Source: Veillonella intestinalis (lineage in GTDB: Bacteria; Bacillota; Negativicutes; Veillonellales; Veillonellaceae). From it: a stretch of DNA of 64,000 nucleotides. The DNA is taken from positions 1 through 64,000 of the forward strand of contig NZ_CALPDB010000003.1 in the NCBI RefSeq assembly GCF_943193155.1, written 5' to 3'. The number at the start of each line of letters is the position of its first letter. Position 1 is the first letter of the stretch. The position numbers were made by a program, and so were the translations under genes. The notes beneath the pieces are model-generated. The model made no database searches, was not told the origin of the DNA, and saw only the letters and a program-made list of their open reading frames with translations. This document shows, piece by piece, positions 27,201 through 58,739 of the stretch.

Positions 27201-28223
27201 ATTACGCTACATGATGGTGCTAAGTATACTAGTACGCCAAAGCATGCTGTTAAAGAACCAGCTTTATTGGCTGCTGTTGAACGGTTAGAGCCAATTCAAG
27301 CAGAGCCATTGCATGAGGAAATAGTAGAACGCTTTAATTTTGCTTATCCTTATATGGGGGCTGTACAACGAGCGGCTAAGATCTCTGTTAGTGAATTGAA
27401 ACGACGTTTTGCTGAGCCCGAAGAAGAGGCGGTTAGCATAGTTTCAGATACGATAGGTCTTATAGATCTTGCAGACTCTATAAATTCTACAAATACTACA
27501 GCTATTACAGAGTCTGCAAATACTGCAAATACTGCAAATACTGCAAATACTGTAAATACTGTAAATACTGTAAATACTGAAAACATGGAAAACACTGCAA
27601 ACACCACAGTTACTACAGACTTTGCGTCTCCTATGCAAATAAAAGAAACACCTTCTAATTTGGGCGCTTTTGATGTAAAACCACAAGCCTTGATGGATAA
27701 GGAAGAAGTGGCGTCAGGTGCACGTTGGGGTACATTGATGCACGAAGCTATGCAATGGTTGCCGTTAGAAGCATATACAGCACAACATTTGCGTGATACT
27801 TTGGATCGATTGACCTTAGAAGGATATTTCACTACGGAAGAACGACAGGTGCTTAATGAGCGGGCTTTACATCGTTTCTTTACCTCTGATTTAGGTCAAC
27901 GGCTCTTGGCTTCGCCACAAGTGGCTAGAGAATGGCCATTTAGTATGCTCATTGAAGGGCATGAAGTATATCCCGAGGTAGAACCAGGAGAAAAGCTGTT
28001 CTTACAAGGGATTATTGATACGGCCTTTTTAGAAGATAATCAATGGGTGTTAGTGGATTATAAAACAGATCGGGTACCTGATGGGGAAGCGTTGATAAAA
28101 CGATATGGCGTGCAATTACAGATATATAGTAAAGCTTTGGAGAGATTAACTGGATTACCGGTAAAAGCTTGTTATATATATTCTTTCCGTTTACATGAAG
28201 CGGTATTAGTGGATGTGGAGTAG
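24234..28223 (+). CDS. addA: ATP-dependent helicase/nuclease subunit AddA
   Basis: A UvrD-like helicase with a C-terminal nuclease domain, partner of AddB. Walker A is AAAGSGKTAVLVERI near residue 27, Walker B VDEYQDTSG, motif IV-VI features are YVGDVKQSIYRFR, IHKSKGLEFPVV and ALTRARDK, and the nuclease motif LVDYKTDR is near the C-terminus. The protein is 1329 residues, longer than usual (about 1230), owing to two low-complexity inserts: acidic and serine-rich near residues 545-590, and an Asn/Thr/Ala repeat near 1093-1125 encoded by a 9-bp minisatellite. The ATG at 24234 is 8 bases from AAGGAGG; that at 24228 is too close. Confidence 0.95.
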   Translation: MKWTKAQEQAIKSPRQGTLPSQTLLVAAAAGSGKTAVLVERIIQRLQDKERPLSIQELLVVTFTKAAAAEMSARIGAKLADVFNSTGDPKLEEQLSLLPSAHISTLHSFCQWVISSYFYRLDIDPSYRIGNEGELMLLKTDVLATLLAKAYEENKYHIFAIADMFGNDRSDDGIIEQVLALHRFAVAQADPEAWLVDSKNRYELALEQPILDTIWGEYFWRQQQQLIGEIATRYETMRELTSLPDGPAKWSEQVDSVQYIMNALGEATTWDAMHEAVALIGQHKFKSFDTRSFKKDLDAGILSDGLVSQVKALGVANKEALQAMQTGPFVITEAQFHAQIKQMLPYVQGLVDLTLAFMVEFTAAKQELGMLDFSDLEHLCLALLRTKQADGTWAPSEVALELQQTFKEVMVDEYQDTSGVQEAIVNLVSRKDNRFYVGDVKQSIYRFRMANPLLFMEKYHRFGHGVDDVEMRIDLSENFRSDANILKFTNFVFHQIMSAEAAELEYGEKEALNPGRKVEDAPENWVGGPVELHLIDVGEGAKSTFADEGTEDTNKASKGQGSMWTVSDTSASGSEFASEDDVDLENDEKEIAFIIEKLQALKEQAKVVQNPDGSYRPMAWRDVVILLRSVKVKAGRMVEALRQAGIPAYAEENSGYFSALEVKLLLALLQVIDNPEQDLPMAAVLGSPFVGLDANELGHLRMSGEGSLWSLLASYGKTTDNEGVLHFVERLERWRTYSRQHSVSDLLWTIYEEMNYLDYVSAMPNGLVRRANVMALYERAKQYEAGSFRGIFRFLRFLESLQEAGQDLGIGKTVSEADDVVRIMSIHKSKGLEFPVVFLASSQKGFNLRDIQAPMLLHGDSGVAVKGYFEAYRVLYGSLPWVHMREQLRLAAKAEEERILYVALTRARDKLFITGFVKDFKALCQKQAGPALVANSEKLPTSLITGANSYLDWFIMSLSRHLEGNPIRVYSKVEDVALMDLPDKKCRLSITLHDGAKYTSTPKHAVKEPALLAAVERLEPIQAEPLHEEIVERFNFAYPYMGAVQRAAKISVSELKRRFAEPEEEAVSIVSDTIGLIDLADSINSTNTTAITESANTANTANTANTVNTVNTVNTENMENTANTTVTTDFASPMQIKETPSNLGAFDVKPQALMDKEEVASGARWGTLMHEAMQWLPLEAYTAQHLRDTLDRLTLEGYFTTEERQVLNERALHRFFTSDLGQRLLASPQVAREWPFSMLIEGHEVYPEVEPGEKLFLQGIIDTAFLEDNQWVLVDYKTDRVPDGEALIKRYGVQLQIYSKALERLTGLPVKACYIYSFRLHEAVLVDVE
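27512..27606 (+). repeat. In-frame 9-bp minisatellite inside addA
   Basis: About ten tandem units of the type ACTGCAAAT or ACTGTAAAT, decaying at the right end. They encode repeats of Asn-Thr-Ala/Val in the linker between the helicase and nuclease domains. The 9-bp unit keeps the reading frame whatever the copy number. Confidence 0.9.
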
Positions 28224-44088: not shown

Positions 44089-44132
44089 AAAACCTCTTAT
44101 TGCTAATTGCACAATTAGTAGTAAGAGGTTTT
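44089..44132 (+). terminator. Terminator after the pseudouridine synthase gene
   Basis: A 21-bp imperfect stem (44089-44109 with 44112-44132) ending in TTTT. Its outer arm AAAACCTCTTATTG is shared with the terminator at 45610-45654. Confidence 0.82.
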
Positions 44133-44155: not shown

Positions 44156-44264
44156 TCAAGAGTTTTTGTTATTTTTACTCTAGCTTTTTTACCTTCTTTT
44201 GTACTATAATTAACCTCGTGTTTAATTTTTAGTGTTATGTTTTAAGTTTGAAGGAGGTTTTACA

Positions 44265-45590
44265 ATGAGTGAAGCGTTACAAGCTACGAAAGAACGATTT
44301 CTACGCTTGCAGATGCATTCATTAATTGGGATATGGATTGGCTATGCTATGTACTATGTAGTGCGAAGCAACTTCAATTTAGCCTTACCATATTTGTCGG
44401 GAGAGATGGGATTAACTAAGACACAGCTAGGTTTATTGACGAGCTGTATGTTAATTACTTACGGTCTTAGTAAAGGCTTTATGAGTGTGTTAGCCGATAA
44501 AGCTAATCCTAAGTATTTTATGGCCACAGGCCTAGCTCTTTGTGTTGTTATTAACATAGTTATGGGCTTCACTACACATTACAGTCTATTTATTGCACTT
44601 ATTATTTTATTAGGATTGTTCCAAGGTATGGGTGTAGGCCCTTCGATTATTACGGTAGGTTATTGGTTCCCGCGGTCACAACGTGGTCGGGCGAGTACCA
44701 TTTGGAATATGTCTCATAACCTAGGTGGTGGTATTGTAGCACCTATTGTAGGGGCTGCGGTAGGCTATTTAGGGACAGAACATTGGCGTTTAGGTACCTT
44801 TACAGTACCTGCTATGTTAGCCGCTATTGGCGTATTATTGATTTTGTATTTTGTTCGTAAACGTCCTGCTGAAGAAGGTTTGCCAACTGTTGAAGAAATG
44901 TATCATGAAGAGGCAGCTGGGCAAAAATCAGCTAAGATGGACAGCGAACGACCAGAAAATATGAATGCGTTCCACGTGTTTTATCATTATGTTTTTAAAA
45001 ATCCAAATTCTTGGTATTTAGTGCTTATTGACGTATTTGTTTATATGGTTCGCTTTGGCATGTTGACTTGGATTCCACTATACTTATTAAAAGTAAAAGG
45101 CTTTAGTAAAGCTGAAATGAGTGTGGCCTATATGTTATTTGAATGGGCAGCGATTCCATCAACGATTATTGCAGGCTACTTAGTAGATAAATACTTTAAA
45201 GGCCGTATTATGCAATTGCCAATTTATTGCTTAGTCGTTATTTTTGCTTGTGTTATTGGTTATATGAATTCCAATTCTATTTTATGGGCGACTATTTTTG
45301 CTTGTATTACGGGCTGTTTAATTTATATTCCGCAATCTATGATTCCTGTACAGGCGATGGAAGTAATTCCTACTTTTGCATTAGGTTCGGCCGTAGGTTT
45401 ACGTGGCCTTATGAGTTATTTAGTAGGTAGCTCTTTGGGGACGACTCTATTTGGCTTTGTTGTCGACCATTATGGTTGGGACATGGGTTTCTATACATTG
45501 CTTGTGGGTGTAGTCCTTTGTATGTTCTCCTGTTATTTATCTAACCGTGGGGTTCAAAAGATTTATAAACAAGCAGCTGAATTAAAATAG
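44265..45590 (+). CDS. MFS transporter, organophosphate:phosphate antiporter family
   Basis: A 441-residue, 12-span transporter. MYYVVRSNFNLALPYLSGEMG (about residues 28-48) and GMGVGPSIITVGYWFPRSQRGRAS (about 123-146) resemble the GlpT/UhpT/UhpC branch that exchanges sugar or glycerol phosphates for phosphate. Exact substrate unknown. The ATG at 44265 has AAGGAGG 8 bases upstream; the frame is open from 44232 but without a site. It is a single-gene unit between two look-alike terminators and downstream of a 25-bp palindrome. Confidence 0.85.
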   Translation: MSEALQATKERFLRLQMHSLIGIWIGYAMYYVVRSNFNLALPYLSGEMGLTKTQLGLLTSCMLITYGLSKGFMSVLADKANPKYFMATGLALCVVINIVMGFTTHYSLFIALIILLGLFQGMGVGPSIITVGYWFPRSQRGRASTIWNMSHNLGGGIVAPIVGAAVGYLGTEHWRLGTFTVPAMLAAIGVLLILYFVRKRPAEEGLPTVEEMYHEEAAGQKSAKMDSERPENMNAFHVFYHYVFKNPNSWYLVLIDVFVYMVRFGMLTWIPLYLLKVKGFSKAEMSVAYMLFEWAAIPSTIIAGYLVDKYFKGRIMQLPIYCLVVIFACVIGYMNSNSILWATIFACITGCLIYIPQSMIPVQAMEVIPTFALGSAVGLRGLMSYLVGSSLGTTLFGFVVDHYGWDMGFYTLLVGVVLCMFSCYLSNRGVQKIYKQAAELK

Positions 45591-45609
45591 TATGTGTGAT
45601 GTAGTGTGA

Positions 45610-45654
45610 AAAAACCTCTTATTGTTAATGTTATGTTAACAATAAGAGGTTTTT
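45610..45654 (+). terminator. Terminator after the MFS gene
   Basis: A perfect 19-bp stem (45610-45628 with 45636-45654) ending in TTTTTGTTTTG. Confidence 0.9.
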
Positions 45655-45680
45655 GTTTTGTAGTAAAAAGTTGTAGAAAA

Positions 45681-45714
45681 TACAAGTTTGTGCTATTGAT
45701 AGCATAAACTTGTA
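45681..45714. other. Strong hairpin of unknown role
   Basis: A 15-bp stem (45681-45695 with 45700-45714, one G-T pair, 4-nt loop), 27 bases after the previous terminator and 160 bases before the aldo/keto reductase gene. No T-tail on the plus strand; a weak one on the minus strand. Confidence 0.5.
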
Positions 45715-45872
45715 AAAATAAAAAGTTTTTGCTATGCGTGAAATTATGGAAGATGGTTATATATCTATCAATACTTTTTCTAGCTTAGTATAGTTACCTT
45801 TAGTATAATAAAAGCAAAGAGCTATCTATCATAATACAATTGACTAAGAGATTCACCATGAAAGGAGTCTTT

Positions 45873-46850
45873 ATGCGCTACACTACAATTCCTACAACAG
45901 ATATTAAAATATCTCCTATCACCGTAGGCTGTATGAGCTTTGGCAAAGATGTATTGGGGCAAAAGTGGAGTTTAAATCCAGAAGAAACGGAAGCTATGGT
46001 CAAACTTTCACTTGATTTAGGCCTTAATTTCTTTGATACAGCTAATCAATATGGGGATGGGACTAGTGAAGAGTATTTAGGGAGGGCTTTGAAGAAATTT
46101 GTCGCTCGTGACCAAGTGGCGATTGCTAGCAAAGTATATTTTAATGATGGTAAATTATCTAAAGAAGCGATTGCCCGTGAAATTGACGGATCTTTAAAGC
46201 GCTTAGGTACAGATTACCTCGATTTATATATCATTCATCGTTTTGATTATGAAACACCTGTAGAAGAAACACTGGAAGCGCTACATAACTTAGTGAAAGC
46301 AGGTAAAGTAAGAGCTTTAGGGGCTTCCTCTATGTTTGCGTTTCAGTTTCATACCATGCAACATGTGGCGGAGCTCAATGGGTGGACACAATTTGTAGCT
46401 ATGGAAAACCACTATAATTTGTTATATCGTGAAGAAGAACGTGAAATGATTCCTCTTTGTAAGCAACAAGGGGTTATGTTAATGCCTTATAGTCCGTTAG
46501 CTGGCGGCCGTTTAGCGCGTGTTAATTGGCAAGAAAAAACAAAGCGTAGTGAGATTGATACGATTGCAAAACGTAAATATGATAGTACAGAGGAGCAAGA
46601 TTTGCCAATTGTACAGCGTGTAGCGGCACTAGCGCAAACTCATGAGGTAACTATGTCACAAATTGCCTTGGCTTGGCAATGGGCGAAAGGGATTACAGCA
46701 CCTATTGTAGGAGCCACTAAGGCCAGTCACATTGAAGATGCTGTAAAAGCGCTTGATGTAAAGTTAACTGGTGAAGAAATTACATATTTAGATGAATTGT
46801 ATTTACCTCACAAAATGATGGGGCCTATTCCAGTACCCACTGATAAATAA
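45873..46850 (+). CDS. Aldo/keto reductase
   Basis: A 325-residue NADPH-dependent oxidoreductase with TIM-barrel fold. The catalytic tetrad is visible: Asp in FFDTANQYGDG, Tyr of the same motif, Lys in AIASKVYF and His in YIIHRFD. GPIPVP near the C-terminus is found in YghZ/IolS-like members. Substrate unknown. Of three in-frame ATGs (45840 region, 45858, 45873), the last is chosen because AAAGGAG lies 5 bases before it. Monocistronic, with a terminator after it. Confidence 0.9.
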   Translation: MRYTTIPTTDIKISPITVGCMSFGKDVLGQKWSLNPEETEAMVKLSLDLGLNFFDTANQYGDGTSEEYLGRALKKFVARDQVAIASKVYFNDGKLSKEAIAREIDGSLKRLGTDYLDLYIIHRFDYETPVEETLEALHNLVKAGKVRALGASSMFAFQFHTMQHVAELNGWTQFVAMENHYNLLYREEEREMIPLCKQQGVMLMPYSPLAGGRLARVNWQEKTKRSEIDTIAKRKYDSTEEQDLPIVQRVAALAQTHEVTMSQIALAWQWAKGITAPIVGATKASHIEDAVKALDVKLTGEEITYLDELYLPHKMMGPIPVPTDK

Positions 46851-46885
46851 TGTCTATGGGTTTATTGTATGTAGAGGTATAAACA

Positions 46886-46925
46886 AAAGAGGTGTAACCG
46901 CAGGCAAATTCGGTTACACCTCTTT
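46886..46925 (+). terminator. Terminator after the aldo/keto reductase gene
   Basis: A perfect 15-bp stem (46886-46900 with 46911-46925) flanked by A and T runs. Confidence 0.88.
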
Positions 46926-46980
46926 ATATTTAGGGTTTAGTTATATGGTTACATGTAAAGCTTACATCATAGGTTTATAT

Positions 46981-47013
46981 AACAGTGTATATAATAAGTA
47001 TATATACACTGTT
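46981..47013 (-). terminator. Terminator after dps
   Basis: A perfect 13-bp AT-rich stem (46981-46993 with 47001-47013) lying just past the dps stop on the minus strand. T-tail is poor, so the call is moderate. Confidence 0.55.
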
Positions 47014-47050
47014 AGTTAGCTTTGTAAATTATAATACTATAAACGTGCTA

Positions 47051-47485
47051 TTAAGCTAAGCTAGCGCGTAAGAACCAAAGTTGTTTTTCATAGTAAGCCA
47101 AGTGATCTTCCATAAGAGCCACTAAGGCAAAATTATCTTCTTCATCAGCTACACTGCGAATTTCAAGAGCTAGGTCAGACATAAGTTTGAAGTCTGCTTG
47201 TAAGATTTCGTATACTTCTTTTACGCTGAAGTTACGACCATCTAATTCTTCGATAGAAGCAATTTGTAAGTATTCAGATACACGAACTGCTGGTTCTTCG
47301 CCTTTCATTTTTAGAAGTTCGGCAACAGCATCATAGTACTCAAAGGCATTGTCATATACACTTTCAAGATATTCGTGAGTTGGTACGAATTGAGAACCAA
47401 CTACATTGAAATGTAGGTTGTGTAATTTTACATTCCAAATGGCTAAGTTTGCTAAATATTTGTTTACTTCTTGTACGTTTTTCAT
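47051..47485 (-). CDS. dps: Dps family ferritin-like DNA-protection protein
   Basis: A 144-residue four-helix protein that forms 12-mers, oxidises ferrous iron with peroxide and shields DNA. The first helix has NVKLHNLHFNVVGSQFVPTHEYLESVYD, with the His and Asp/Glu ligands of the inter-subunit ferroxidase site; DAVAELLKMKGEEPAV follows. GGAGGAAAA precedes the ATG on the minus strand. A PerR-box-like site lies about 125 bases upstream, so peroxide or iron control is likely. Confidence 0.93.
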   Translation of the reverse strand: MKNVQEVNKYLANLAIWNVKLHNLHFNVVGSQFVPTHEYLESVYDNAFEYYDAVAELLKMKGEEPAVRVSEYLQIASIEELDGRNFSVKEVYEILQADFKLMSDLALEIRSVADEEDNFALVALMEDHLAYYEKQLWFLRASLA

Positions 47486-47607
47486 AAGTTTTCCTCCTAA
47501 ATTGACTGCTGATTGATTCTCAGCAATTTACATTACCTATTAAATCGCTTCAATCATTATGTGATTGAAATTGAATGTTTAATTAGTTGCGGATAATTGT
47601 TTTTAGT

Positions 47608-47622
47608 TTATAATAATTATCC
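47608..47622 (-). promoter_or_regulatory. PerR-box-like operator upstream of dps
   Basis: TTATAATAATTATCC matches the PerR consensus TTATAATNATTATAA at 13 of 15 positions. It is also nested in a wider inverted repeat (CGGATAAT at 47590-47597 and ATTATCCG at 47616-47623). Assignment to PerR as against Fur is inference. Confidence 0.6.
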
Positions 47623-47778
47623 GTTGCTATGTGTATATCTTAACATAGGCAATAATGAATGTCAACTAATTAATAATGATTTTCTGTTAATATTATTTTT
47701 AATTTAACTTTAGGGAATAATTTTAACGTGTAAACTCTATTTATAGTTAGATATTAATATGTACTTAAGGATATAAAA

Positions 47779-47847
47779 AGCCCTCATCAATTATCATAAC
47801 AATTAGCTACGCCTTGCTTTTCATGTTATGAAGCATTGATAAGGGCT
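47779..47847 (-). terminator. Terminator after narK
   Basis: A long stem with small bulges (AGCCCTCATCAA region 47779-47800 with 47825-47847) and a 24-nt loop. On the minus strand it lies past the narK stop and leads into TTTTTATATCC. Confidence 0.75.
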
Positions 47848-47916
47848 ATGAAGATTGTATTATAATAGGATAATTTCTTAATCAATTAATGGTTAAAAGT
47901 TACTTGTGGTTAATGG

Positions 47917-49254
47917 TTAGCATTTTATACCAGCTGCTTTACGTGCATAAAACCAGTAAGTTAAGAAAATTGTAATGACCATAAAGACCAAGATAATATA
48001 GAAGGCAGGCATTACAGAATGATAGCTACTATAAGCCCAGCCGAATACTTTGGGAATGAAGAAGGCACCATAGGCACCGATAGCAGCTGTGAAGCCTGTA
48101 ACTAAGGAGGATTGCATGCCATTGGTGAAAATATAAGGAATCATGCGGAAAGAAGCACCTGTTTCAAGGCCTGTCATAAAGAATAAAAATAAGAAGGCAC
48201 TGAAGAAAATAATAAAATTATGAGCCGTTATGCCATACATAATGAATATAGCACCAATGAGCATACCTACTAAAGACCAAAGTGTAATAGTTGTGCCACT
48301 GTTAATTTTATCGGCCAGCCAACCACCGATAGGGCGAATACCAGCACCGATGAATGGGCCAAGGAATGCGCCATAGGCAAAGGGAATTTCAGGGAATTCT
48401 TTTTGTACTAATAAACTAAGGGCTACAGAGAAACCAATAAAAGCACCAAAACCACAGGTATAAATCCAAGTCATAATCCAGGTATGTTTATTGGTAAAGA
48501 TACTCATCATGGAGGCAGGACTTTGTTTTGGTAATGGTAGGTTGTCCATATATTTAATAATCAGGCCTAAGGTAATTAAGATTTGAATAATGCCCACATA
48601 GCAGGTATTTTGTAAGAATAAGACCGTGCCATCTTGCATTGTTTGAGGCGTTCCAACAAAAGGGGCAAATACAGTCATGCCCATAACGATAGGTGCCATA
48701 AGAAAGATGATGGAAACACCTAAATTCCCGATACCAGCATTGATGCCTAGGGCTGTGCCACGTTGTGAACGGGGAAAGAAATGTCCGATGTTTGCCATGG
48801 AGTAAGAAAAGTTAGCCCCCGCAATCCCTAATAAAGCCACATAAATAAAGAAGGTTTCATAAGAGGTGGTCGGATCTTGTAAGGCTTGAGCAAGGCCCCA
48901 TAAAGGTATGAGTAACAAAGCGGTGGCAAAGAATGTCCAGTTACGGCCTCCTAGGATGCCTGGCATATAGGTGTAAAGTAAGCGTCCCGTAGCACCAACT
49001 AGTCCAGGCATAGCTGCTAGGGTAAAGAGTTGTTCGTCAGTAAAATGAAAGCCCACGGCATTGAGTTTCACTGCTATGGTTGACCATAGTGTCCATACAC
49101 AAAATGATAGTGTTAAAGCGAGTGTAGATACGATTAAGTTTTGTTTAGCAATACGTTTACCATGTTGATTCCAGAATTGTTCATTGTCAGGCTGCCACTG
49201 AGCTAGGATTTCGCGACGACTCAGTGAAGCAGTAAGGTCGGACGTAGATGACAT
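47917..49254 (-). CDS. narK: Nitrate/nitrite transporter NarK
   Basis: A 445-residue MFS protein of the nitrate/nitrite porter family with about 12 membrane spans. The family signature is SQRGTALGINAGIGNLGVSI (about residues 162-181), with a second copy-like motif ASFRMIPYIFTNGM later. It would import nitrate and/or export nitrite for the respiratory reductase encoded divergently. AAAGGAG lies 8 bases upstream of the ATG. It is preceded by a structured leader with an internal terminator and by a Crp/Fnr-type box. Confidence 0.93.
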   Translation of the reverse strand: MSSTSDLTASLSRREILAQWQPDNEQFWNQHGKRIAKQNLIVSTLALTLSFCVWTLWSTIAVKLNAVGFHFTDEQLFTLAAMPGLVGATGRLLYTYMPGILGGRNWTFFATALLLIPLWGLAQALQDPTTSYETFFIYVALLGIAGANFSYSMANIGHFFPRSQRGTALGINAGIGNLGVSIIFLMAPIVMGMTVFAPFVGTPQTMQDGTVLFLQNTCYVGIIQILITLGLIIKYMDNLPLPKQSPASMMSIFTNKHTWIMTWIYTCGFGAFIGFSVALSLLVQKEFPEIPFAYGAFLGPFIGAGIRPIGGWLADKINSGTTITLWSLVGMLIGAIFIMYGITAHNFIIFFSAFLFLFFMTGLETGASFRMIPYIFTNGMQSSLVTGFTAAIGAYGAFFIPKVFGWAYSSYHSVMPAFYIILVFMVITIFLTYWFYARKAAGIKC

Positions 49255-49501
49255 AGATAAGCTCCTTTTCAGTGTTAATTCGTTACATTTGTTTTTTTTT
49301 GCGTTTTAACATTTTATAGTTAAAAAAATTACTCCCCTTTGAGGAGCCTAGATTGGGAATAGGGAGTATTATTGACTATAATTAGGTGCTATAAGTTTAG
49401 GGTTCATCAATCTAGGCTACGAATAGATGATATTACTAATAGAATTGTAGGGCTTAGTAGCATCATCTATACAGGGGATGACAGGCGTAGAGTCCTTGTC
49501 T
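49255..49501 (-). promoter_or_regulatory. Structured leader RNA of narK (candidate attenuator)
   Basis: The predicted minus-strand transcript starts near 49501 (-10 TATACT at 49513-49508) and runs about 247 nt to the narK ATG. It can fold a stem closed by CTACG/CGTAG, carrying ATAGATGAT/ATCATCTAT (49423-49431 with 49462-49470), then an 11-bp helix AGCCTAGATTG/CAATCTAGGCT (plus-strand 49408-49418 with 49345-49355). The second arm of that helix overlaps the first two bases of an intrinsic terminator. A further pairing, ACTCCC/GGGAGT (49362-49367 with 49331-49336), would compete for the terminator arm. No known riboswitch class is recognised. Confidence 0.6.
49321..49346 (-). terminator. Intrinsic terminator inside the narK leader
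   Basis: On the minus strand CTCCTC-AAA-GGGGAG (plus 49332-49346) is followed by TAATTTTTTTA. It lies 67-92 bases before the narK start codon, so unless bypassed it would stop transcription ahead of the gene. Confidence 0.75.
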
Positions 49502-49534
49502 AATTGGAGTATAAGAGAAATAAAAAACCTTGTA

Positions 49535-49550
49535 TGTGATATTTATCACG
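49535..49550. promoter_or_regulatory. Crp/Fnr-type binding site between narK and the regulator gene
   Basis: TGTGATATTTATCACG fits TGTGA-N6-TCAC(A). Its centre (49542.5) is 41.5 bp from the inferred narK start at 49501, the class II activator position. In the other direction a weak -10 (AATGAT, 49571-49576) lies at nearly the same spacing for the regulator gene, so the site may serve both. Confidence 0.7.
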
Positions 49551-49723
49551 GAATTGAAAGATTGCTAAAAAATGATGAGATTCATTAGCATAAATAAAAC
49601 ACACATTATATAGAATCATAGAAAGACATCGATATATAGTAGTAGATATGCTATAATGAAAAAGAAAAATGCTTATAGGGAAAGGGCGTTGAAAGGGACA
49701 AATCATTGGCTGAGGTGTTACGT

Positions 49724-50404
49724 ATGAAGTATACGTTTGAAATGGTAAAGGAGTTAAGGGCTTTTAAGGGATTAAGTGAAACTGAATTTAAAGATGTTAT
49801 TAAAAGTATAGGGGCTTACAGTAAAAACTTTAAAAAAGGGGGCTACATAACATTAGCGGAGGAAGAAATTCGTTGCGTTAGTGTTATTATTAAGGGCACC
49901 GTTCATATGATGAGTGAAGATATTTGGGGAAATCGTTCGATTCTAGTCTTTATGAATCGAGGCGATTTATTTGGTGAATCCTTTGCTTGTAGTTCTAATC
50001 AAGTATCGCTAGTCAATTTTTATGCAGCGTCTGATGTGACGGCGCTCTATATTCCATTTGATAAGCTATTAGCTTTTGCGTCTAAAGATGTAGGACCCTA
50101 TCGCCAGCTGGTGCAAAATATTATGACCTTAGTGGCCGATAAAAATGTACGCATTTTGCAAAAGCTTGAGATTGTTTCGAAGCGAAATTTGCGAGATAAG
50201 TTGATGGCGTATTTTTCCTATATGGCAAAGGTTTGGGGGCGTATGGAGTTTGAAGTGCCTTTAGGCCGTGTGGCGCTTAGTGAGTATTTATGTGTAGATC
50301 GTAGTGCGTTGACTCGAGAATTATCTCGTATGCGTGACGATGGTCTTATTGAATTTGAGAAGAATCATTTTAAAATATTGGTGCCTGCTGAATCCTTAAC
50401 TTAG
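49724..50404 (+). CDS. Crp/Fnr family transcriptional regulator
   Basis: A 226-residue regulator with an N-terminal cyclic-nucleotide-binding-like beta-barrel (GDLFGESFACSS near residues 86-97) and a C-terminal winged helix (VALSEYLCVDRSALTRELSRMRDDGLI, about 185-211). The N-terminal cysteine cluster of FNR is missing, so it is not an oxygen-sensing iron-sulfur FNR; the recognition helix also differs from that of CRP. Location between narK and narG suggests control of nitrate respiration. The ATG at 49724 has GAGGTG 6 bases upstream; TTG at 49706 is an alternative. Confidence 0.88.
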   Translation: MKYTFEMVKELRAFKGLSETEFKDVIKSIGAYSKNFKKGGYITLAEEEIRCVSVIIKGTVHMMSEDIWGNRSILVFMNRGDLFGESFACSSNQVSLVNFYAASDVTALYIPFDKLLAFASKDVGPYRQLVQNIMTLVADKNVRILQKLEIVSKRNLRDKLMAYFSYMAKVWGRMEFEVPLGRVALSEYLCVDRSALTRELSRMRDDGLIEFEKNHFKILVPAESLT

Positions 50405-50424
50405 TAGACTACACAGTAGCTTTG

Positions 50425-50508
50425 TGAAGTTTACGCCATGAAGTTTACTCTATGAAGTTTACGCCATGAAATTTGCGCCATGGAATTTGGAGTATGGAAT
50501 TTGCTGTT
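50425..50508 (+). repeat. Six tandem copies of a 14-bp repeat
   Basis: Units such as TGAAGTTTACGCCA follow one another without gaps from 50425 to 50508, diverging to TGGAATTTGCTGTT at the right. They lie between the regulator's stop and its terminator. No coding role is seen. Confidence 0.88.
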
Positions 50509-50534
50509 AGGATAGTAAAGTAGATATGAATTAG

Positions 50535-50563
50535 AGTCGGTGTGATAAGCACCGACTTTTTTT
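50535..50563 (+). terminator. Terminator after the Crp/Fnr regulator gene
   Basis: Stem AGTCGGTG/CACCGACT (50535-50542 with 50550-50557) followed by T6 to T7. Confidence 0.9.
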
Positions 50564-50627
50564 ATTGGTTCAGTTTTATTTAATCATTTATATTAGTTTG
50601 TCCGATTGGATTAAATTTCTTAAATTC

Positions 50628-50671
50628 ATGTGATTAAAATCACATAAGGGGATAAGTTCCTTTGGTATGCT
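50628..50671 (+). promoter_or_regulatory. narG promoter with Crp/Fnr-type box
   Basis: An 8-bp perfect inverted repeat, ATGTGATT-AA-AATCACAT (50628-50645), contains TGTGA-N6-TCACA. A -10 TATGCT lies at 50666-50671, giving a start near 50678 and placing the box centre at -41.5. There is no good -35, as expected for an activator-dependent class II promoter. Confidence 0.75.
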
Positions 50672-50695
50672 GAAAGTAATAAGGAGGGACACAGC

Positions 50696-53600
50696 ATGAA
50701 CACGTTCTTTAAGAAATTTTCCTATTTAGTGCCTAAAAATAAAAGTGAATCAGGTCATCAAGCCATTTATGAAGGAGGCCGTGACTGGGAATCCATGTAT
50801 CGTAATCGTTGGTCTTACGACAAAGTAGTGCGTTCAACACATGGTGTTAACTGTACAGGTTCTTGTAGTTGGAATGTTTTTGTCAAAAATGGCATTGTCA
50901 CTTGGGAGAATCAGAATCATGATTATCCTGAAACAAGCCCTGACATGCCAGATTTTGAGCCTCGTGGTTGTCCTCGTGGGGCATCGTTTTCATGGTATAT
51001 GTATAGCCCATTACGGGTGAAGTATCCCTATGTGCGTGGAGAGTTAGCGGATATGTGGCGTGCCGCTAAAAAAGAATATCCGAATGCGTTAGAAGCTTGG
51101 AAATCCATTGTGACAGATCCAGAAAAAGCGAAGCGTTATAAATCGGCTCGTGGTATGGGTGGTTTTGTGCGTTCTACTTGGGAAGAAGCGTCTGAAATTA
51201 CTGCAGCTTCTATGCTATATACAGTGCAGACCTATGGGCCTGATCGTAACTTTGGTTTTTCCCCAATTCCAGCCATGTCTATGATTAGTTACGCTGCAGG
51301 GGCTCGTTTTATGAACCTTATGGGTGGTGCCTGCCTTAGCTTCTATGATTGGTATGCTGATTTGCCTCCAGCTAGTCCGCAAGTGTGGGGCGATCAAACG
51401 GATGTGCCAGAAAGTAGTGATTGGTATAATGCGGGCTATATTATGACTTGGGGATCAAATGTGCCACAAACACGTACCCCAGATGCTCACTTTTTAACTG
51501 AAGTGCGTTATAAAGGGACCAAAGTAATTTCTGTATCTCCTGACTACGCAGAATCTACTACCGCTGCCGATACTTGGCTTAATGTGAAAGCTGGCTCTGA
51601 TGGTGCCTTAGCTATGGCTATGGGGCATGTTATTTTAAAAGAATATTATGTAGACAATACGACGCCTATGTTTGTAGACTATGCTAAGCGATATACGGAT
51701 TTTCCATTCTTAGTACAGCTTGAAGAGAAGGATGGTAAATTAGTAGCAGGTCATTTCTTAACAGCCAAAGATATGGGCGATACCTCTGAACATAGTGAAT
51801 TTAAGTATTATGTACTCGATGAGACTACGGATACTTTAGTTATTCCTAATGGACAAATGGGTCATCGTTGGAGTGACAAAACAAAATGGAATTTAAAATT
51901 AGAAAATAGTGAGAATGGGGCACCGATTAATCCTGTATTATCGTTTATTGATAGTAATGATGCTGTGAAGGCTGTTACGTTACCATTCTTTGGTCATTTA
52001 GATGAAAAACGTACACTAGACCGTCATGTACCAGTTAAGCAATTGCATACTCGTACAGGCATTGTATATGTGACAACTGTATATGATTTATTACTTGCTA
52101 ATTATGGTGTAGACCGCGGGCTAGGTGGCGAGGTTAATGCTGATTATACTAGTGATACGCCCTTTACACCAGCATGGCAAGAAAAATATACCGGCATTAC
52201 ACCAGACATGGTGATTCATACAGCTCGTGAATTTGCAGATAATGCGATTGCTACGGGTGGTCGTTCTCTGATTATTATGGGTGGTGGTATCAATCACTGG
52301 TTCCATGCGGATGTAATTTATCGCGCTGTATTGAACCTTGTACTATTCTGTGCTTGTGAAGGTAAAAATGGTGGCGGTTGGGCGCATTATGTAGGCCAGG
52401 AGAAACTTCGTCCTGCTGAAGGTTGGGGCGCTATTATGAGTGCTAAAGATTGGCAGCCAGTTCCTCGTTTACAAAATGGTACGTCTTTCTTCTATTTCGC
52501 TACGGATCAGTGGCGTACTGATGAAATGGATACAGACGATTTAGTATCGCCATTGGCATCGCCACGATATCGTCATGTAGGTGATTATAATGTATTAGCG
52601 GCTCGTCTTGGTTGGTTGCCTTCCTATCCAACCTTTAATAAAAGTGGAGCAGCTATTTTTGAGGAGGCTAAACAAGCAGGTCTTACAGAGTTTGGCGATG
52701 TAAAAACGTTTGTAGCCGAGCAATTAAAGAAGAAAGAATTAAGCTTTGCTGTGGAAGATCCAGATGCACCAGAAAACTTCCCGCGCAATCTTATAGTATG
52801 GAGGGCAAATTTAATTACTTCATCTTCTAAAGGGCACGAATATTTTATGAAACATTTGTTAGGTACGAAAAATGGCCTTTTAGAAAATAACGAGCTTGTA
52901 GCAAAACCAACAGAAATCAAGTGGCGTGAACAGGCAGGTGAAGGCAAGTTGGATTTGCTGGTTGATTTAGACTTCCGCATGGCTGGGTCTGCTTTATATT
53001 CTGATATTGTATTACCGACGGCAACTTGGTATGAAAAGACAGATTTATCATCAACCGATATGCATCCGTTTGTGCATCCTTTCCAGCCTGCTGTTGATCC
53101 AGGTTGGGAAGCTAAGACAGACTGGGATATATTCTTAACTTTAGGCAAAGCCGTTTCAAAACTAGCAAAAGAAGTGAATATGCCTGTATACCGTGATATG
53201 GTGGCGATGCCTTTGCAACATGATTCTGAAGCAGAATTAGCGCAACCAGGTGGAGTGGTGAAGGATTGGAGCCGTGGTGAATGTGAACCAATTCCAGGTA
53301 AAACAATGCCTCAACTGGTAGAAGTGACGCGTGATTATACACGCATTTTTGAAAAGCAGCGTGCTTTAGGCCCTAATTTAGCGAATGGTGCTGTAGGGGC
53401 ACATGGTATTGCTGTTAATATTGGTGAACAATATGAAGAATTAAAAGCTCGTAATGGTGTGATTCGTGGTGCTAGCTTAGGCGGTGTTAAAGAAGGCAAT
53501 ACGACGGATGTTTTGGCTGATGATGTGGGCATTGGCTGTCCTTCGATTGAAGATGCATATCAAGCCTGCCAAGCCGTGCTTACCATGTCTTCCGCTACGA

Positions 53601-54418
53601 ATGGTGCAGTAGCACATAAGAGTTGGGCCAAAGCCGAAGAGTTGACGGGACTTACGGATTTAACCAAAATGACAGGTGGTCGTAGTGGTGAACATATTAC
53701 CTTTGAAGATATTGTGGCTCAACCACGCTTAGTTATTAGTACGCCAATCTTCACTGGTAATGGTAAGGATAATCGCCGTTATACGCCATTTACGAATAAT
53801 GTGGAATTACTTATGCCATTCCGCACTATTACAGGTCGTCAATCGTATTTCTTAGATCACGATGTTATGGCAGAATGGGGTGAACAGATGGCAACGTACA
53901 AACCTATTTTGGCCTACGCACCAATGCGGGAAGCGTTGCCAAATGATGGGACTCCAGAAATTACACTTAAATATTTAACGCCACATAATAAATGGAGTAT
54001 TCACAGTATGTACTTTGATACGCCACAGATGTTGACTTTATTCCGTGGTGGTCAGTCTGTATGGCTTAATGAAGATGATGCGAATGAAATTGGCGTAGCT
54101 GATAATGATTGGATTGAATTATACAATAGTAATGGTGTAGTAGCATCCCGAGTTGTGGTAACGCCTCGTATTCCACGTGGCCTTGTATATATGCATCATG
54201 CTCAGGATCGTCACATTAATGTGCCAGGTACTAGTTTGACTGGCGGTCGTGGCGGTACTCATAATACACCGACACGAATTCATATGAAACCAACCCATAT
54301 GATTGGGGGCTATGGACAATTAAGTTATGGGTTTAACTATTACGGACCTACCGGTAATCAACGCGACATGCTTGTGGTAGTGCGTAAGATGAAGGAGGTT
54401 GATTGGCTTGAAGATTAA
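50696..54418 (+). CDS. narG: Respiratory nitrate reductase alpha subunit
   Basis: The 1240-residue molybdenum (bis-MGD) subunit that reduces nitrate to nitrite at the cytoplasmic face of the membrane. The FS0 cluster ligands fall at His49, Cys53, Cys57 (THGVNCTGSCSW) and Cys92 (EPRGCPRGAS), the same numbering as in E. coli NarG. The Mo-ligand aspartate is in CLSFYDWYADLPPASP, and VGQEKLRPAEGW and GGWAHYVG are conserved. No twin-arginine signal is seen. AAGGAGGG precedes the ATG. First gene of narGHJI, whose frames overlap throughout. Confidence 0.97.
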   Translation: MNTFFKKFSYLVPKNKSESGHQAIYEGGRDWESMYRNRWSYDKVVRSTHGVNCTGSCSWNVFVKNGIVTWENQNHDYPETSPDMPDFEPRGCPRGASFSWYMYSPLRVKYPYVRGELADMWRAAKKEYPNALEAWKSIVTDPEKAKRYKSARGMGGFVRSTWEEASEITAASMLYTVQTYGPDRNFGFSPIPAMSMISYAAGARFMNLMGGACLSFYDWYADLPPASPQVWGDQTDVPESSDWYNAGYIMTWGSNVPQTRTPDAHFLTEVRYKGTKVISVSPDYAESTTAADTWLNVKAGSDGALAMAMGHVILKEYYVDNTTPMFVDYAKRYTDFPFLVQLEEKDGKLVAGHFLTAKDMGDTSEHSEFKYYVLDETTDTLVIPNGQMGHRWSDKTKWNLKLENSENGAPINPVLSFIDSNDAVKAVTLPFFGHLDEKRTLDRHVPVKQLHTRTGIVYVTTVYDLLLANYGVDRGLGGEVNADYTSDTPFTPAWQEKYTGITPDMVIHTAREFADNAIATGGRSLIIMGGGINHWFHADVIYRAVLNLVLFCACEGKNGGGWAHYVGQEKLRPAEGWGAIMSAKDWQPVPRLQNGTSFFYFATDQWRTDEMDTDDLVSPLASPRYRHVGDYNVLAARLGWLPSYPTFNKSGAAIFEEAKQAGLTEFGDVKTFVAEQLKKKELSFAVEDPDAPENFPRNLIVWRANLITSSSKGHEYFMKHLLGTKNGLLENNELVAKPTEIKWREQAGEGKLDLLVDLDFRMAGSALYSDIVLPTATWYEKTDLSSTDMHPFVHPFQPAVDPGWEAKTDWDIFLTLGKAVSKLAKEVNMPVYRDMVAMPLQHDSEAELAQPGGVVKDWSRGECEPIPGKTMPQLVEVTRDYTRIFEKQRALGPNLANGAVGAHGIAVNIGEQYEELKARNGVIRGASLGGVKEGNTTDVLADDVGIGCPSIEDAYQACQAVLTMSSATNGAVAHKSWAKAEELTGLTDLTKMTGGRSGEHITFEDIVAQPRLVISTPIFTGNGKDNRRYTPFTNNVELLMPFRTITGRQSYFLDHDVMAEWGEQMATYKPILAYAPMREALPNDGTPEITLKYLTPHNKWSIHSMYFDTPQMLTLFRGGQSVWLNEDDANEIGVADNDWIELYNSNGVVASRVVVTPRIPRGLVYMHHAQDRHINVPGTSLTGGRGGTHNTPTRIHMKPTHMIGGYGQLSYGFNYYGPTGNQRDMLVVVRKMKEVDWLED

Positions 54419-55880
54419 AGCACAAATTTCCATGGTCATGAATTTAGATAAATGTATCGGCTGTCATACCTGTTCGATTACATGTAAAAATACGTGGACC
54501 AATCGTGAAGGCGCGGAATACATGTATTTTAATAATGTAGAAACAAAACCTGGCATTGGGTATCCGAAACATTGGGAAGATCAGAATCGTTGGAAAGGCG
54601 GTTGGGTGTTAAAGAATGGCAAGCTAGAGTTAGCGACAGGCTCTAAAAGCAATCGTTTGATGAAACTATTTTTCCATCCAGAGCAGCCAGAATTAAAGGA
54701 TTATTTTGAGCCTTGGACATATGACTATGAAACTTTAATTCATTCTAAGCGCAAGAATAATCAGCCTGTGGCACGACCTCGTTCTTTGATTACTAAAGAA
54801 AAAATGGAAATAGAATGGGGGCCTAACTGGGAAGACGATTTAGCCGGTGGTAGCACAGCTCGCGCTGATGTGAATTTACAGAACTTAGGACAGAATATCG
54901 CTCTTGATTTCCACGATATTTTTATGAAATATTTGCCACGTCTTTGTAATCATTGTTTGAATCCTGCTTGTGTAGCCGCTTGTCCATCAGGAGCTATTTA
55001 TAAGCGCGACGAAGATGGGGTTGTATTGATTTCACAAGATGTATGTCGTGGTTGGCGTCATTGTGTACCGGCTTGTCCGTATAAAAAGATTTATTATAAC
55101 TGGCAGACTAATAAAGCCGAAAAATGTGTGTTCTGTTATCCCCGTTTAGAAAATGGTCTGCCACAGATTTGTGCTGACACTTGTGTAGGTCGCATGCGTT
55201 ATGTAGGTGTGCTTTTATATGATTTAGATAAAGTAGCTGATGTAGCGGCTACTGAAAATCCGCAAGACATTTATGGCAATATGTTGGATGTGATTTTAGA
55301 TCCTCATGATCCAGCAGTAGTACAAATGGCACGAGAACAAGGCATTCCAGAGAATTGGCTAAAAGCGGCCAAAGAGTCGCCCGTTTATCGTTTAATTAAA
55401 GAGTGGCAAATTGCTTTACCTCTTCATGCGGAATATCGTACGGTTCCTATGGTGTGGTATGTACCGCCAATGAGCCCCATTTTACATAAACAAGCGTCGT
55501 CAGTTCATTTCCCTGAAGCAGAAGCCATGCGAATTCCGGTAGCTTACTTGGCACAATTATTGTCTGCAGGGAATGAAGCGGTAATACGCCGTGTGTTAGA
55601 TACTTTATTGGACTTACGTCGTTATATGCAACAGCGTACGCGTGGTGAAGCGACGACTGACTTTGATGAAAAATATGGGCCTCATGCTTTATATGATATG
55701 TATCGCTTACTAGGGGTTGCTAAATATAAAGACCGTTTTAGAATTCCCGCTGGGGTGAATGCTTCTCAAGAAGAAAAACGGTTACACCAAGGCGTAGGTG
55801 GTTTTAGTGACTGTGCGTTTGGCGGTTGTTCTGGCAGTACGGGAGCAGGTAGTTGTTCAGGAGGTGGTTGCCATGAGTAA
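54408..55880 (+). CDS. narH: Respiratory nitrate reductase beta subunit
   Basis: A 490-residue iron-sulfur subunit relaying electrons from NarI to NarG. Four Cys groups are visible: CIGCHTCSITCKN near the N-terminus, CNHCLNPACVAACPSG, CRGWRHCVPACPYKK (with the Trp that makes one cluster 3Fe-4S) and CVFCYPRLENGLPQICADTC. The start is TTG at 54408, 9 bases after AAGGAGG and aligned with the usual MKI opening; it overlaps narG by 11 bases. The last ~25 residues are unusually Gly/Ser/Cys-rich (GGFSDCAFGGCSG, ending GGGCHE). Confidence 0.96.
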   Translation: MKIKAQISMVMNLDKCIGCHTCSITCKNTWTNREGAEYMYFNNVETKPGIGYPKHWEDQNRWKGGWVLKNGKLELATGSKSNRLMKLFFHPEQPELKDYFEPWTYDYETLIHSKRKNNQPVARPRSLITKEKMEIEWGPNWEDDLAGGSTARADVNLQNLGQNIALDFHDIFMKYLPRLCNHCLNPACVAACPSGAIYKRDEDGVVLISQDVCRGWRHCVPACPYKKIYYNWQTNKAEKCVFCYPRLENGLPQICADTCVGRMRYVGVLLYDLDKVADVAATENPQDIYGNMLDVILDPHDPAVVQMAREQGIPENWLKAAKESPVYRLIKEWQIALPLHAEYRTVPMVWYVPPMSPILHKQASSVHFPEAEAMRIPVAYLAQLLSAGNEAVIRRVLDTLLDLRRYMQQRTRGEATTDFDEKYGPHALYDMYRLLGVAKYKDRFRIPAGVNASQEEKRLHQGVGGFSDCAFGGCSGSTGAGSCSGGGCHE

Positions 55881-56445
55881 TAGAGTGGCAGCGACTGTAG
55901 GCGTAGATGCTACACAACGAATGCAGACTGAGCAGGACGTATTACAAGTTTGTGCGTATTTGTTGAGTTATCCTAGCGAAGCTTGGTGGAGTTCGCTCCA
56001 TGAAGTAGAAACTATATTGGCCGCTTGGGCTGAGGGGCCTATAAAAGATAGCTTAGGATCTGTTGTAGAATACATTATGAGTCAAACTCAGCGTGAGTAT
56101 GAGGATGAATATGTGCGAGTGTTTGATTTTAGTGGTAACACTAATATGTATTTAACGTCGTATGATGCGACTAATGCAGAAGAACAAGCGGCAGAATTAT
56201 TAGTATTTAAAGAGTTTTATCAAAAACATGGTTTTGATGTGGCTAGAGAGCTACCAGATTATGTGCCTGCTTTATTAGAACTTTGTAGTACTTTACAAGC
56301 TGATGAAGCTTTGCCGATCTTAACGTATAGCCGAGAGGGGTTAACAGTATTGCGGCAGCGATTAATCGATAGCCAACAAGTACAAGCCTTTGTTTTAGAT
56401 GTGATTTTACAAATTATTGAACGTTGGGAGGGGGCTACACGATGA
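55873..56445 (+). CDS. narJ: Nitrate reductase assembly chaperone NarJ
   Basis: A 190-residue TorD/NarJ-family chaperone that holds NarG during cofactor insertion. Features are QVCAYLLSYPSEAWW near residues 23-37 and YEDEYVRVFDFSGNTNMYLTSYD (about 75-97), typical of NarJ. The ATG at 55873 lies behind AGGAGGTGG and overlaps the end of narH, giving coupling; the longer frame to 55798 is narH sequence in another frame. Confidence 0.92.
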   Translation: MSNRVAATVGVDATQRMQTEQDVLQVCAYLLSYPSEAWWSSLHEVETILAAWAEGPIKDSLGSVVEYIMSQTQREYEDEYVRVFDFSGNTNMYLTSYDATNAEEQAAELLVFKEFYQKHGFDVARELPDYVPALLELCSTLQADEALPILTYSREGLTVLRQRLIDSQQVQAFVLDVILQIIERWEGATR

Positions 56446-57104
56446 GTGAATTTGTATGGGTCGCCTTACCGTATATAGCGTTTACCTTTTTGGTGATTGG
56501 ATCGGCGGTGCGCTATACGGTATCGGAGCGCAATTGGACTACTAAGTCGAGTCAATTTTTGGAGAAAAAACAGTTACGTATAGCGGGCCCTTTGTTCCAT
56601 TTTGCACTACTATTGGTTTTCTTTGGTCATGTTGGTGGTATTTTGGTGCCTCAAGAAGTGACTGAAAAGGTAGGTGTAGATGAACATCTTTATCATGCAG
56701 GGGCATTGTACATTGGAGGACTAGCTGGTATCTTATTAGTTGTTGGTTTTCTTCTTCTTATGAAACGACGTTTTGGTACTTCTTATATGAAGGTCAATAC
56801 ATCGTCCATGGATGTGTGGCTCTTTGCATTTTTAGGTATTACTATTTTGACGGGCTTTTTAGGGACTATGATGAATGCAGATGGGGCGTTTAATTATCGT
56901 GCGTATATTGGACCTTGGTTTCGTAGTTTATTAATTTTGCAACCACAACCAGAATTAATGGTGAATATTCCTCCTATTTTTAAGGCTCATATGCTATCTT
57001 GGATGATTGTATGTATTATTTTTCCGTTTAGCCGATTAGTTCATTGTTTGAGTTTTCCCTTCCGTTATTTGAATCGTAGTGCTATTGTATATCGGAAGCA
57101 TTGA
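56442..57104 (+). CDS. narI: Respiratory nitrate reductase gamma subunit
   Basis: A 220-residue cytochrome b membrane anchor with five spans that oxidises menaquinol and sends electrons to NarH. Haem-ligand histidines fit FHFALLLVFFGHVGG (first pair) and KAHMLSWMIVCIIFPFSRLVH (second pair). The ATG overlaps the narJ stop (ATGA) and GGGAGG lies upstream. Last gene of the operon; a terminator follows 150 bases later. Confidence 0.94.
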   Translation: MSEFVWVALPYIAFTFLVIGSAVRYTVSERNWTTKSSQFLEKKQLRIAGPLFHFALLLVFFGHVGGILVPQEVTEKVGVDEHLYHAGALYIGGLAGILLVVGFLLLMKRRFGTSYMKVNTSSMDVWLFAFLGITILTGFLGTMMNADGAFNYRAYIGPWFRSLLILQPQPELMVNIPPIFKAHMLSWMIVCIIFPFSRLVHCLSFPFRYLNRSAIVYRKH

Positions 57105-57254
57105 GTGCGTAGGTTTGTGTAGTTTGATATAGATTAAGACAGTTTTATATACTTTTAATAGTGAAATATTAAATCAAGTAAAAAGTAATTAATGAGTGCT
57201 ATACGCTTGCTATTGAGAGTATAGTATTGATATATTTAATTAATTTATACTTTT

Positions 57255-57292
57255 ATAGGGTTTCATAACTTTTAGTTGTGAAACCCTATTTT
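57255..57292 (+). terminator. Terminator of the nar operon
   Basis: A 15-bp stem (57255-57269 with 57275-57289, one G-T pair) followed by TTTTTTC. Confidence 0.85.
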
Positions 57293-57825
57293 TTCATTAG
57301 AAATTAATGATGAAAAAGAAGAATTGCCTATATCAATTGCGTATAGGTGTCTGTAAAACGTCAAAAAAATGAAGTGGAGAGGCTTTTTTTTGATTTGTAT
57401 AGCGTCAAAAAAGAGCAAATAAATTATATTATTGGTAATAATTATCATTTAGTTAATTAAGGAAATTCGATTAGATATTTCTAGCTATGGAATTAAAATT
57501 TAAATTTTGTGGAATTCAATACTATGGAGATGGCAAATTATTGTATAGTATGTGCAGAAAAAACGTATGTATATGGTATGAGGAAATGCAATTATATACA
57601 GGCATATAATAGAAAAGCTATGTGGCAAACGGTTGTGTATTGATTGCATAGTATTGCGCTTTATGGAGGTGTATATTTGCTGAATATTAATGCATAAAAT
57701 GGATGAAAAAGGTGGCTTTTAACTAGCGTATGTGCGCTAGAGGTATAGATATTGTCATCAATCTTTTGATTTTGCGAAAAATTCTCATTAGACATAAATA
57801 CTTGATTAAACTGCATAGGACTTGT
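57293..57825. other. Long intergenic stretch before the fumarase genes
   Basis: About 530 AT-rich bases. A near-repeat of GTCAAAAAA occurs at about 57360 and 57404, and a small CTAGCG/CGCTAG hairpin at 57723-57740. One 40-codon frame (57487-57609) lacks a ribosome binding site. I see no convincing gene or known RNA. Confidence 0.4.
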
Positions 57826-57854
57826 TTGAAAGGCCTTGTCATGTGTGCTATGAT
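57826..57854 (+). promoter_or_regulatory. Promoter of the fumarase operon
   Basis: TTGAAA (57826-57831), 17-bp spacer, TATGAT (57849-57854). The start would fall near 57861, leaving a short leader of about 36 nt. Confidence 0.75.
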
Positions 57855-57896
57855 TAAGTCATCAGAAAACTCGTTTTAAGTTGAGGAGGGATTACT

Positions 57897-58739
57897 TTGC
57901 GTACTATCGATGTAGCAAAAGTGACGGAAACAGTAGCCCAAATGTGTAAAAATGCGGCTTACTATTTACCACAAGATGTATATGAAGGCTTAAAAGCAGG
58001 TCGTGAAACAGAAAAATCTCCAGTAGGTTGTGTTGTATTAGACCAAATCATTAAAAATGCTGAAATTGCTCGTGAAGAAGATCGTCCAATTTGCCAAGAT
58101 ACTGGTTACACTATCGTATTCTTAGAAGTTGGTCAAGATGTACACTTCGAAGGTGGCAATTTAGAAGATGCTATTCAAGAAGGGGTAGCTAAAGGCTATG
58201 TAGAAGGTTACTTACGTAAATCTGTAGTTGCAGAACCTTTATTCAACCGTAAAAACACTGGTAACAATACTCCTTGTATCATTTATACTCGTATTGTTCC
58301 TGGCGATAAAGTTAAAATTGACATGGAACTTAAAGGTTTCGGTTCTGAAAATAAATCTGGCGTAAAAATGCTTGTACCAGCTGATGGTGTTGAAGGCGTT
58401 AAAAATGCTGTTATGGAAATTGTTAAAAAAGCAGGTCCTAACCCTTGCCCTCCAATGGTACTTGGTGTTGGTATCGGCGGTACTATGGACTATGCAGCAT
58501 TGCTTTCCAAAAAAGCATTACTTCGTTCCACTAAAAAACGTAATGATATGCCAGAATACGCTAAATTAGAAGAAGAACTATTAGAAATGGTTAACAAAAC
58601 TGGCATTGGACCTCAGCTTGGTGGTACCACTACAGCGTTAGCAGTTAATATCGAATGGGCTGCTACTCATATTGCTGGTCTTCCTGTAGCCGTGACAATT
58701 TGCTGCCATGCAAGCCGTCATGCTGAAGAAATTATTTAA
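57897..58739 (+). CDS. Class I fumarate hydratase alpha subunit
   Basis: A 280-residue iron-sulfur subunit that, with the next gene, interconverts fumarate and malate. Three cluster cysteines are visible in ICQDTGYTI, NNTPCIIYTRIVPGD and GPNPCPPMVLGVGIGGT. It corresponds to the N-terminal part of one-chain FumA/FumB and to TtdA of tartrate dehydratase; fumarase is preferred because this step is central to propionate-forming or succinate metabolism. The start is a TTG at 57897, set by GAGGAGG 7 bases upstream. Codon use appears strongly biased, suggesting high expression. Confidence 0.9.
   Translation: MRTIDVAKVTETVAQMCKNAAYYLPQDVYEGLKAGRETEKSPVGCVVLDQIIKNAEIAREEDRPICQDTGYTIVFLEVGQDVHFEGGNLEDAIQEGVAKGYVEGYLRKSVVAEPLFNRKNTGNNTPCIIYTRIVPGDKVKIDMELKGFGSENKSGVKMLVPADGVEGVKNAVMEIVKKAGPNPCPPMVLGVGIGGTMDYAALLSKKALLRSTKKRNDMPEYAKLEEELLEMVNKTGIGPQLGGTTTALAVNIEWAATHIAGLPVAVTICCHASRHAEEII

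Follow-up and report, generated by a model that had tools for sequence, protein, structure and literature searches.

The window considered here, a stretch of 64,000 nucleotides from Veillonella intestinalis (genome size 2.03 Mb), carries on its minus strand a gene of the major facilitator type whose product is, by its best matches, a NarK/NarU-type nitrate/nitrite transporter. The matches to the NarU model (E 1.6e-96) and to the NarK model TIGR00886 (E 5.6e-77) both fall under the naming cut-offs, and the solved relatives of the protein include nitrite extrusion protein 2 (4iu8, E 2.8e-92) and the nitrate/nitrite transporter NarK (4u4t, E 4.2e-90). Identity to the NarK of the window species is 95% in Veillonella sp. 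R32 and 86-87% in V. ratti, V. seminalis and KGMB01456. A Crp/Fnr-family regulator is encoded divergently, followed downstream by narG, narH and narI, all three of which score above their cut-offs. The features of narK, its promoter and its inferred leader are as follows.

47917-49254, minus strand: narK-type nitrate/nitrite MFS transporter gene, best matches below naming cut-offs
49262-49266, minus strand: Shine-Dalgarno-like AGGAG of narK
49255-49501, minus strand: inferred narK leader, 247 nt, with its start inferred from the promoter
49322-49328, minus strand: run of seven T after the T hairpin
49331-49347, minus strand: T, terminator-like hairpin GCUCCUCAAAGGGGAGU, -8.0 kcal/mol
49333-49338, minus strand: 3' strand of P1, AGGGGA, overlapping the 3' arm of T
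49345-49355, minus strand: 3' strand of P3
49408-49418, minus strand: 5' strand of P3 (11-bp helix), sequence CCUAGAUUG
49423-49470, minus strand: P2, long hairpin with CCCUACAA in its apical loop
49473-49478, minus strand: 5' strand of P1 (UCCCCU), antiterminator pairing predicted with 49333-49338
49480-49500, minus strand: P0, 5'-terminal hairpin GACA-a-GG / CC-UGUC
49508-49513, minus strand: -10 element TATACT
49535-49550, minus strand: Crp/Fnr-type activator box CGTGATAAATATCACA, centred at -41.5 from the inferred start
49724-50404, plus strand: divergent Crp/Fnr-family regulator gene, with ATG at 49724 and an open reading frame from TTG 49706

The promoter is the firmest of the features noted at this locus. 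A Crp/Fnr-type box and a TATACT -10 element, both proposed in an earlier sequence-only reading, are present, and the distance between them upstream of narK (29 bases from box centre to -10) is identical in all seven genus species examined; V. magna has the same spacing despite its otherwise short leader. Because this spacing is constant, the start proposed near 49501, which places the box centre 41.5 bases ahead, is well supported, and the leader length of about 247 nt given in that reading follows from it. The arrangement of a class II Crp/Fnr promoter, with a box centred near -41.5 and a -10 element, is accordingly found in 7/7 species when counted from this inferred start. Fnr-activated narK promoters of Escherichia coli and Bacillus subtilis also have a Crp/Fnr-type site near -41.5 of narK. 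The Veillonella case differs from them in its divergent regulator, which at 37.7 bits falls well short of the 228 bits set for naming a protein Fnr. The product of that gene is a possible candidate for the protein acting at the narK box.

Other repeats lie on the far side of the regulator gene. The interval between it and the narG promoter contains a tandem 14-base repeat, TGAAGTTTACGCCA, in 4.1 copies with an overlapping row of 3.4 copies (50425-50504), and a perfect Crp/Fnr-type palindrome, TGTGATTAAAATCACA, is found 5' of narG at 50629-50644. Nowhere else in the genome is TGTGATNNNNATCACA matched exactly; matches with one mismatch occur at six more places, the narK box among them, and the reversed control pattern gives four. 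By eye, the narG promoter is followed by a short leader only.

Below the narK promoter, the first 186 nt of the leader are predicted to fold at -44.3 kcal/mol with a z value of -4.1, none of 200 shuffles being equally stable, and the first 181 nt give z of -4.2 and, in a second run, -3.9 (0 of 100 shuffles), while over the whole 247 nt z is only -2.9 and two of 200 shuffles are equally stable. These and all other folding energies derive from a single parameter set and equilibrium folding. When 181-base tiles over both strands of the window were scanned (n = 282, 15 shuffles per tile), 12 had z below -3 and six had z below -4, so that the value for the leader is unusual, not rare. The six tiles represent four places, of which the three inspected all contain strong inverted repeats and the fourth is 27401-27581. 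The existence of equally structured tiles elsewhere in the window favors a reading in which the leader has no function and is simply AT-rich sequence with chance inverted repeats; comparison with relatives, described below, makes this unlikely.

Two sets of inverted repeats elsewhere in the window may be recorded here. One, at 496-549 (24-base, 96% complementary), lies shortly 3' of the 5S rRNA gene and is perhaps the terminator of the rRNA operon; on one strand tile 401-581 has a z of -9.3, on the other -6.1. Two similar repeats with AAAACCTCTTATTG in common, at 45610-45654 and 44089-44132, lie on either side of a transporter-like open reading frame (44232-45590).

Within the leader, P2 corresponds to an inverted repeat of 17 nt (49423-49439/49454-49470, 88% complementary) and P3 to the 11-bp helix of the earlier reading (49345-49355/49408-49418), which is 100% complementary. 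The nested repeats CTACG and CGTAG described there can also be found by eye, but the predicted fold does not pair one with the other. Similarly, the claimed intrinsic terminator stands as a hairpin at 49331-49347 followed by a T run, with seven pairs and seven T that make it a good consensus terminator lying within the leader; the T run, however, spans 49328-49322, and 49321, to which it had been extended, is an A. Terminator-like sites in 45000-58500 number 18, against 8.8 (sd 3.2) expected from shuffles.

The pairings first suggested to compete with this hairpin do not do so to any great extent. The 11-bp helix is hardly a competitor because its overlap amounts to two bases (49345-49346) and nine of its pairs are kept in the best fold with the terminator forced (49341-49346 with 49332-49337; -38.3 kcal/mol). 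The second, between 49362-49367 and 49331-49336, is poor, reaching -32.8 kcal/mol when forced, where the terminator gives -38.3 and the best fold -44.3. The strongest competitor, overlooked in that reading, is P1. Forcing the pairing of 49473-49478 with 49333-49338 returns -44.3 kcal/mol, the global optimum and 6 kcal/mol below the terminator fold. At equilibrium the pairs of P1 have probabilities of 0.87-1.0 and those of the terminator 0.0; in folds of the growing transcript, P1 appears in the minimum-energy structure once its 3' strand has emerged, by 167 nt. P1 and T are predicted to be mutually exclusive, with GGGGA common to both, and P1 is predicted to close a three-way junction enclosing P2 and P3. 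The situation is similar in the relative G001, where the P1 equivalent is CCCU/AGGG and the gap is wider than in the window (-39.3 kcal/mol for the P1-type fold, -24.2 for the terminator-type fold). Since the P1 fold is better by 6 kcal/mol and ties up the 3' arm of the terminator, read-through is the predicted ground state of the leader, as judged from these energies.

The same energies are what would be expected of a constitutive structured leader, in which the fold aids mRNA stability or insulates the start of translation; the hairpin resembling a terminator would then be incidental, going unused because P1 wins. This is possible, if doubtful, as an explanation: the hairpin in the window has the seven pairs and seven T of a good terminator, and during transcription a local hairpin may form ahead of long-range pairing, an effect to which equilibrium folding is blind. 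Two other candidate functions were rejected. An ATG-started frame that might encode a leader peptide lies within P2 of the window by eye, with no ATG there in G001 or R32 (also by eye), and sequestration of the Shine-Dalgarno sequence gives an inconsistent pattern, with mean unpaired values of 0.61 in the window, 0.16 in G001 and 0.22 in R32.

Comparison across the genus shows how narrowly the leader is distributed. By BLAST, a homologous leader is present in three of the seven genus genomes, including that of the window, at E 0.01 or better, and none was found in the other four species. When more of the promoter was included, six of 60 genomes matched, again counting the window's own, with three matches confined to the promoter part. 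Among 61 genomes of the order, three have the pattern CCCTACAA(15-45)CCTAGATTG, each a single time and always in the narK leader, and none has its reversed control. The four species in which BLAST found no homologue are compatible with a leader lacking function. So is the narK leader of V. magna, which at about 76 nt is no more stable than its shuffles (z -0.25 for the 82 nt used in folding). Against that reading, the blocks CCCTACAA and CCTAGATTG are identical across the three species although the matched leader parts are only 74-77% identical, and P2 is preserved between the window and R32 despite 11 substitutions, with 17 of 19 listed positions paired in an alignment made by hand.

The preservation of P2 was measured against random substitutions (1500 replicates, indels ignored, counting those whose stability equalled or exceeded that of the relative). 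From the window to R32 the count is 5/1500 and from G001 to R32 0/1500; P2 is no better than chance from the window to G001 (289/1500) or from R32 to G001 (809/1500). At the fifth and sixth pairs from the loop the window has A-U and U-A, and G001 and R32 both have G-C and C-G, the G001 row being hand-aligned with one bulged base removed. In P0, six pairs are invariant in the three sequences, and an extra pair is A-U in G001, G-C in R32 and unpaired in the window. The P2 loop CCCUACAA and the tail CCUAGAUUG are kept in all three leaders, which give z values of -3.9 (window), -4.2 (G001) and -3.6 (R32), with 0/100 shuffles equally stable in each. For P3, the count from the window to G001 is 58/1500; in R32 its 5' strand is kept and its 3' strand is missing, by eye.

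An alignment of the three leaders, A3, in which the R32 stem is placed imperfectly, has 76.6% of cells paired, a figure reached by 4/500 shuffles and approached by slid structures only to 50% at most. Six pairs in it are changed on both sides, as many as in 22/500 shuffles, and the structure slid by -2 still yields four. From this alignment RNAalifold predicts P0 and not P2, pairing the P2 loop with a P3 strand instead, which leaves the hand comparison, the substitution test with R32 and the A3 counts as the grounds for P2.

The terminator-like hairpin fares differently from these stems. G001 has a weaker hairpin of 21 bases at the homologous place (-4.6 kcal/mol), of which a 19-base piece (-3.6 kcal/mol) is no better than random substitution would leave it (583/1500), and R32 is without the 3' strand of P3 and the whole terminator region, its leader running straight into narK by eye. 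Attenuation, if real, would therefore be specific to one species. That T is unconserved whereas P0 and, in R32, P2 are kept, and that R32 retains both of these without the 3' strand of P3 or T, adds to the constitutive reading. The earlier proposal of a switch had been staked on conservation of the stems among relatives, and it is partly undercut because the terminator is at chance level in G001 and missing in R32, and no leader homologue was detected in four of seven species; P2 from the window to R32 and P3 from the window to G001 speak on the other side, P2 from the window to G001 does not. Of what was called the architecture of a switch, the promoter, the long structured leader, the terminator-like hairpin and a predicted fold mutually exclusive with it all stand, and conservation of the terminator does not.

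A true riboswitch, with nitrate, nitrite or a cofactor as the small molecule that decides between P1 and T by binding either at the P1-P2-P3 junction or in the P2 loop, is improbable. It would make sense of the predicted three-way junction, of the mutual exclusion of P1 and T, and of the loop and tail common to 3/3 leaders. However, no family of Rfam 15 attains its gathering score, either in the leader, in agreement with the earlier reading, or in six relative loci; the best matches (E 4.5-8.3) are far under those scores, and the leader does not qualify as a riboswitch of a described class. The block pattern is limited to the three narK leaders mentioned, the expression platform is absent from R32, and a covariance model (R1) run on the 61 genomes of the order returned six matches at E 1 or better, of which three, at E 1e-24 to 6e-28, are the leaders it was trained on. 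The others (E 0.15, 0.31 and 0.49) are taken as chance, the first (G015, L108), which was inspected in its locus, lying by its expected place inside a 280-aa open reading frame. A pseudoknot joining the loop of P2 to the 5' strand of P3, suggested by the RNAalifold consensus, was rejected, as it is above chance only in G001 (23/2000) and not in the window (273/2000) or R32 (854/2000). Nothing points to a ligand for the narK leader. Very improbable too is a very young switch class confined to the three sister species, in which the P1-P2-P3 junction and the CCCUACAA loop would sense a signal of nitrate respiration and hold narK on, R32 having kept the same sensor with another output after terminator loss. 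In other sources, phage records gave no match, viral contigs gave no exact match to a promoter pattern, and among the literature matches listed no title deals with a riboswitch for nitrate or with a narK leader of Veillonella.

Attenuator-like leaders and structured leaders restricted to a genus are already known in kind, and the narK leader would be at most one more. Like terminator/antiterminator attenuators, it has two exclusive folds with a common strand, one of them an intrinsic-type terminator before the coding region; unlike attenuators generally, its antiterminator is the predicted ground state and its terminator is unconserved. PMC8632094 likewise reports structured leaders that precede one gene in the genus Veillonella, the ilvD and potE motifs, with 73 and 144 representatives (potE also from environmental samples) against three for the narK leader; in the main text of that paper "narK" and "nitrate" have no occurrences.

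Protein-directed antitermination of the ANTAR kind was tested because the genome encodes two ANTAR proteins, each beside a histidine-kinase-like open reading frame by eye. In ANTAR-target leaders (NasR, EutV, NasT), too, a leader terminator can precede a nitrate-related gene, and ANTAR proteins are reported to control nitrate genes elsewhere. As PMC3369931 describes it, their target is a pair of small hairpins whose six-nucleotide loops have A at position 1 and G at position 4. In contrast, among hexaloop hairpins with at least four stem pairs in the seven narK leaders, none has both A1 and G4, and one ANTAR gene adjoins BMC-domain-like and alcohol-dehydrogenase-like open reading frames by eye, all of which leaves this mode of control extremely improbable. 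The two ANTAR response regulators (L100, L101) are located, again by eye, one near BMC-domain-like and iron-alcohol-dehydrogenase-like open reading frames and the other adjoining a groEL-like one.

The explanation preferred here, tentatively, is that an Fnr-type promoter is followed by a structured leader particular to this lineage, and that any attenuation in the window species is partial at most. Activation of narK from the class II promoter would come from a Crp/Fnr-type regulator, perhaps the one encoded divergently, and the 5' end of the narK mRNA would form a lineage-specific folded leader made up of P0, then P2, then P3. P1 would close P2 and P3 into the three-way junction and sequester the 3' arm of the terminator-like hairpin, so that the ground state leads to read-through, and some transcripts of the window species might instead form the terminator and stop near 49322, resulting in partial attenuation of narK. 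The occurrence of termination at all, the identity of the binding protein and any signal are putative throughout. Because just three closely related species were found to have the fold, and one of them a good stop signal, the narK leader resembles a local elaboration of regulation more than a new RNA switch class.

As it stands, this is a modest, testable regulatory leader. If termination is real, it would place post-initiation control of nitrate uptake beneath an Fnr-type promoter in bacteria with nitrate reductase genes. The three sister species, with a good, a weaker and no terminator-like hairpin in the leader, constitute a small natural series of attenuator gain or loss.

The leaders of V. 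ratti, KGMB01456 and V. seminalis were rejected as homologues, as they have no BLAST or model match. These species have a different narK leader, about 155 bases upstream of narK (L039, L040 and L041), with several short complementary segments by eye. The z values are -0.99 for V. ratti and -0.19 for KGMB01456; the leader of V. seminalis alone folds clearly better than its shuffles (z -2.65, 0/100).
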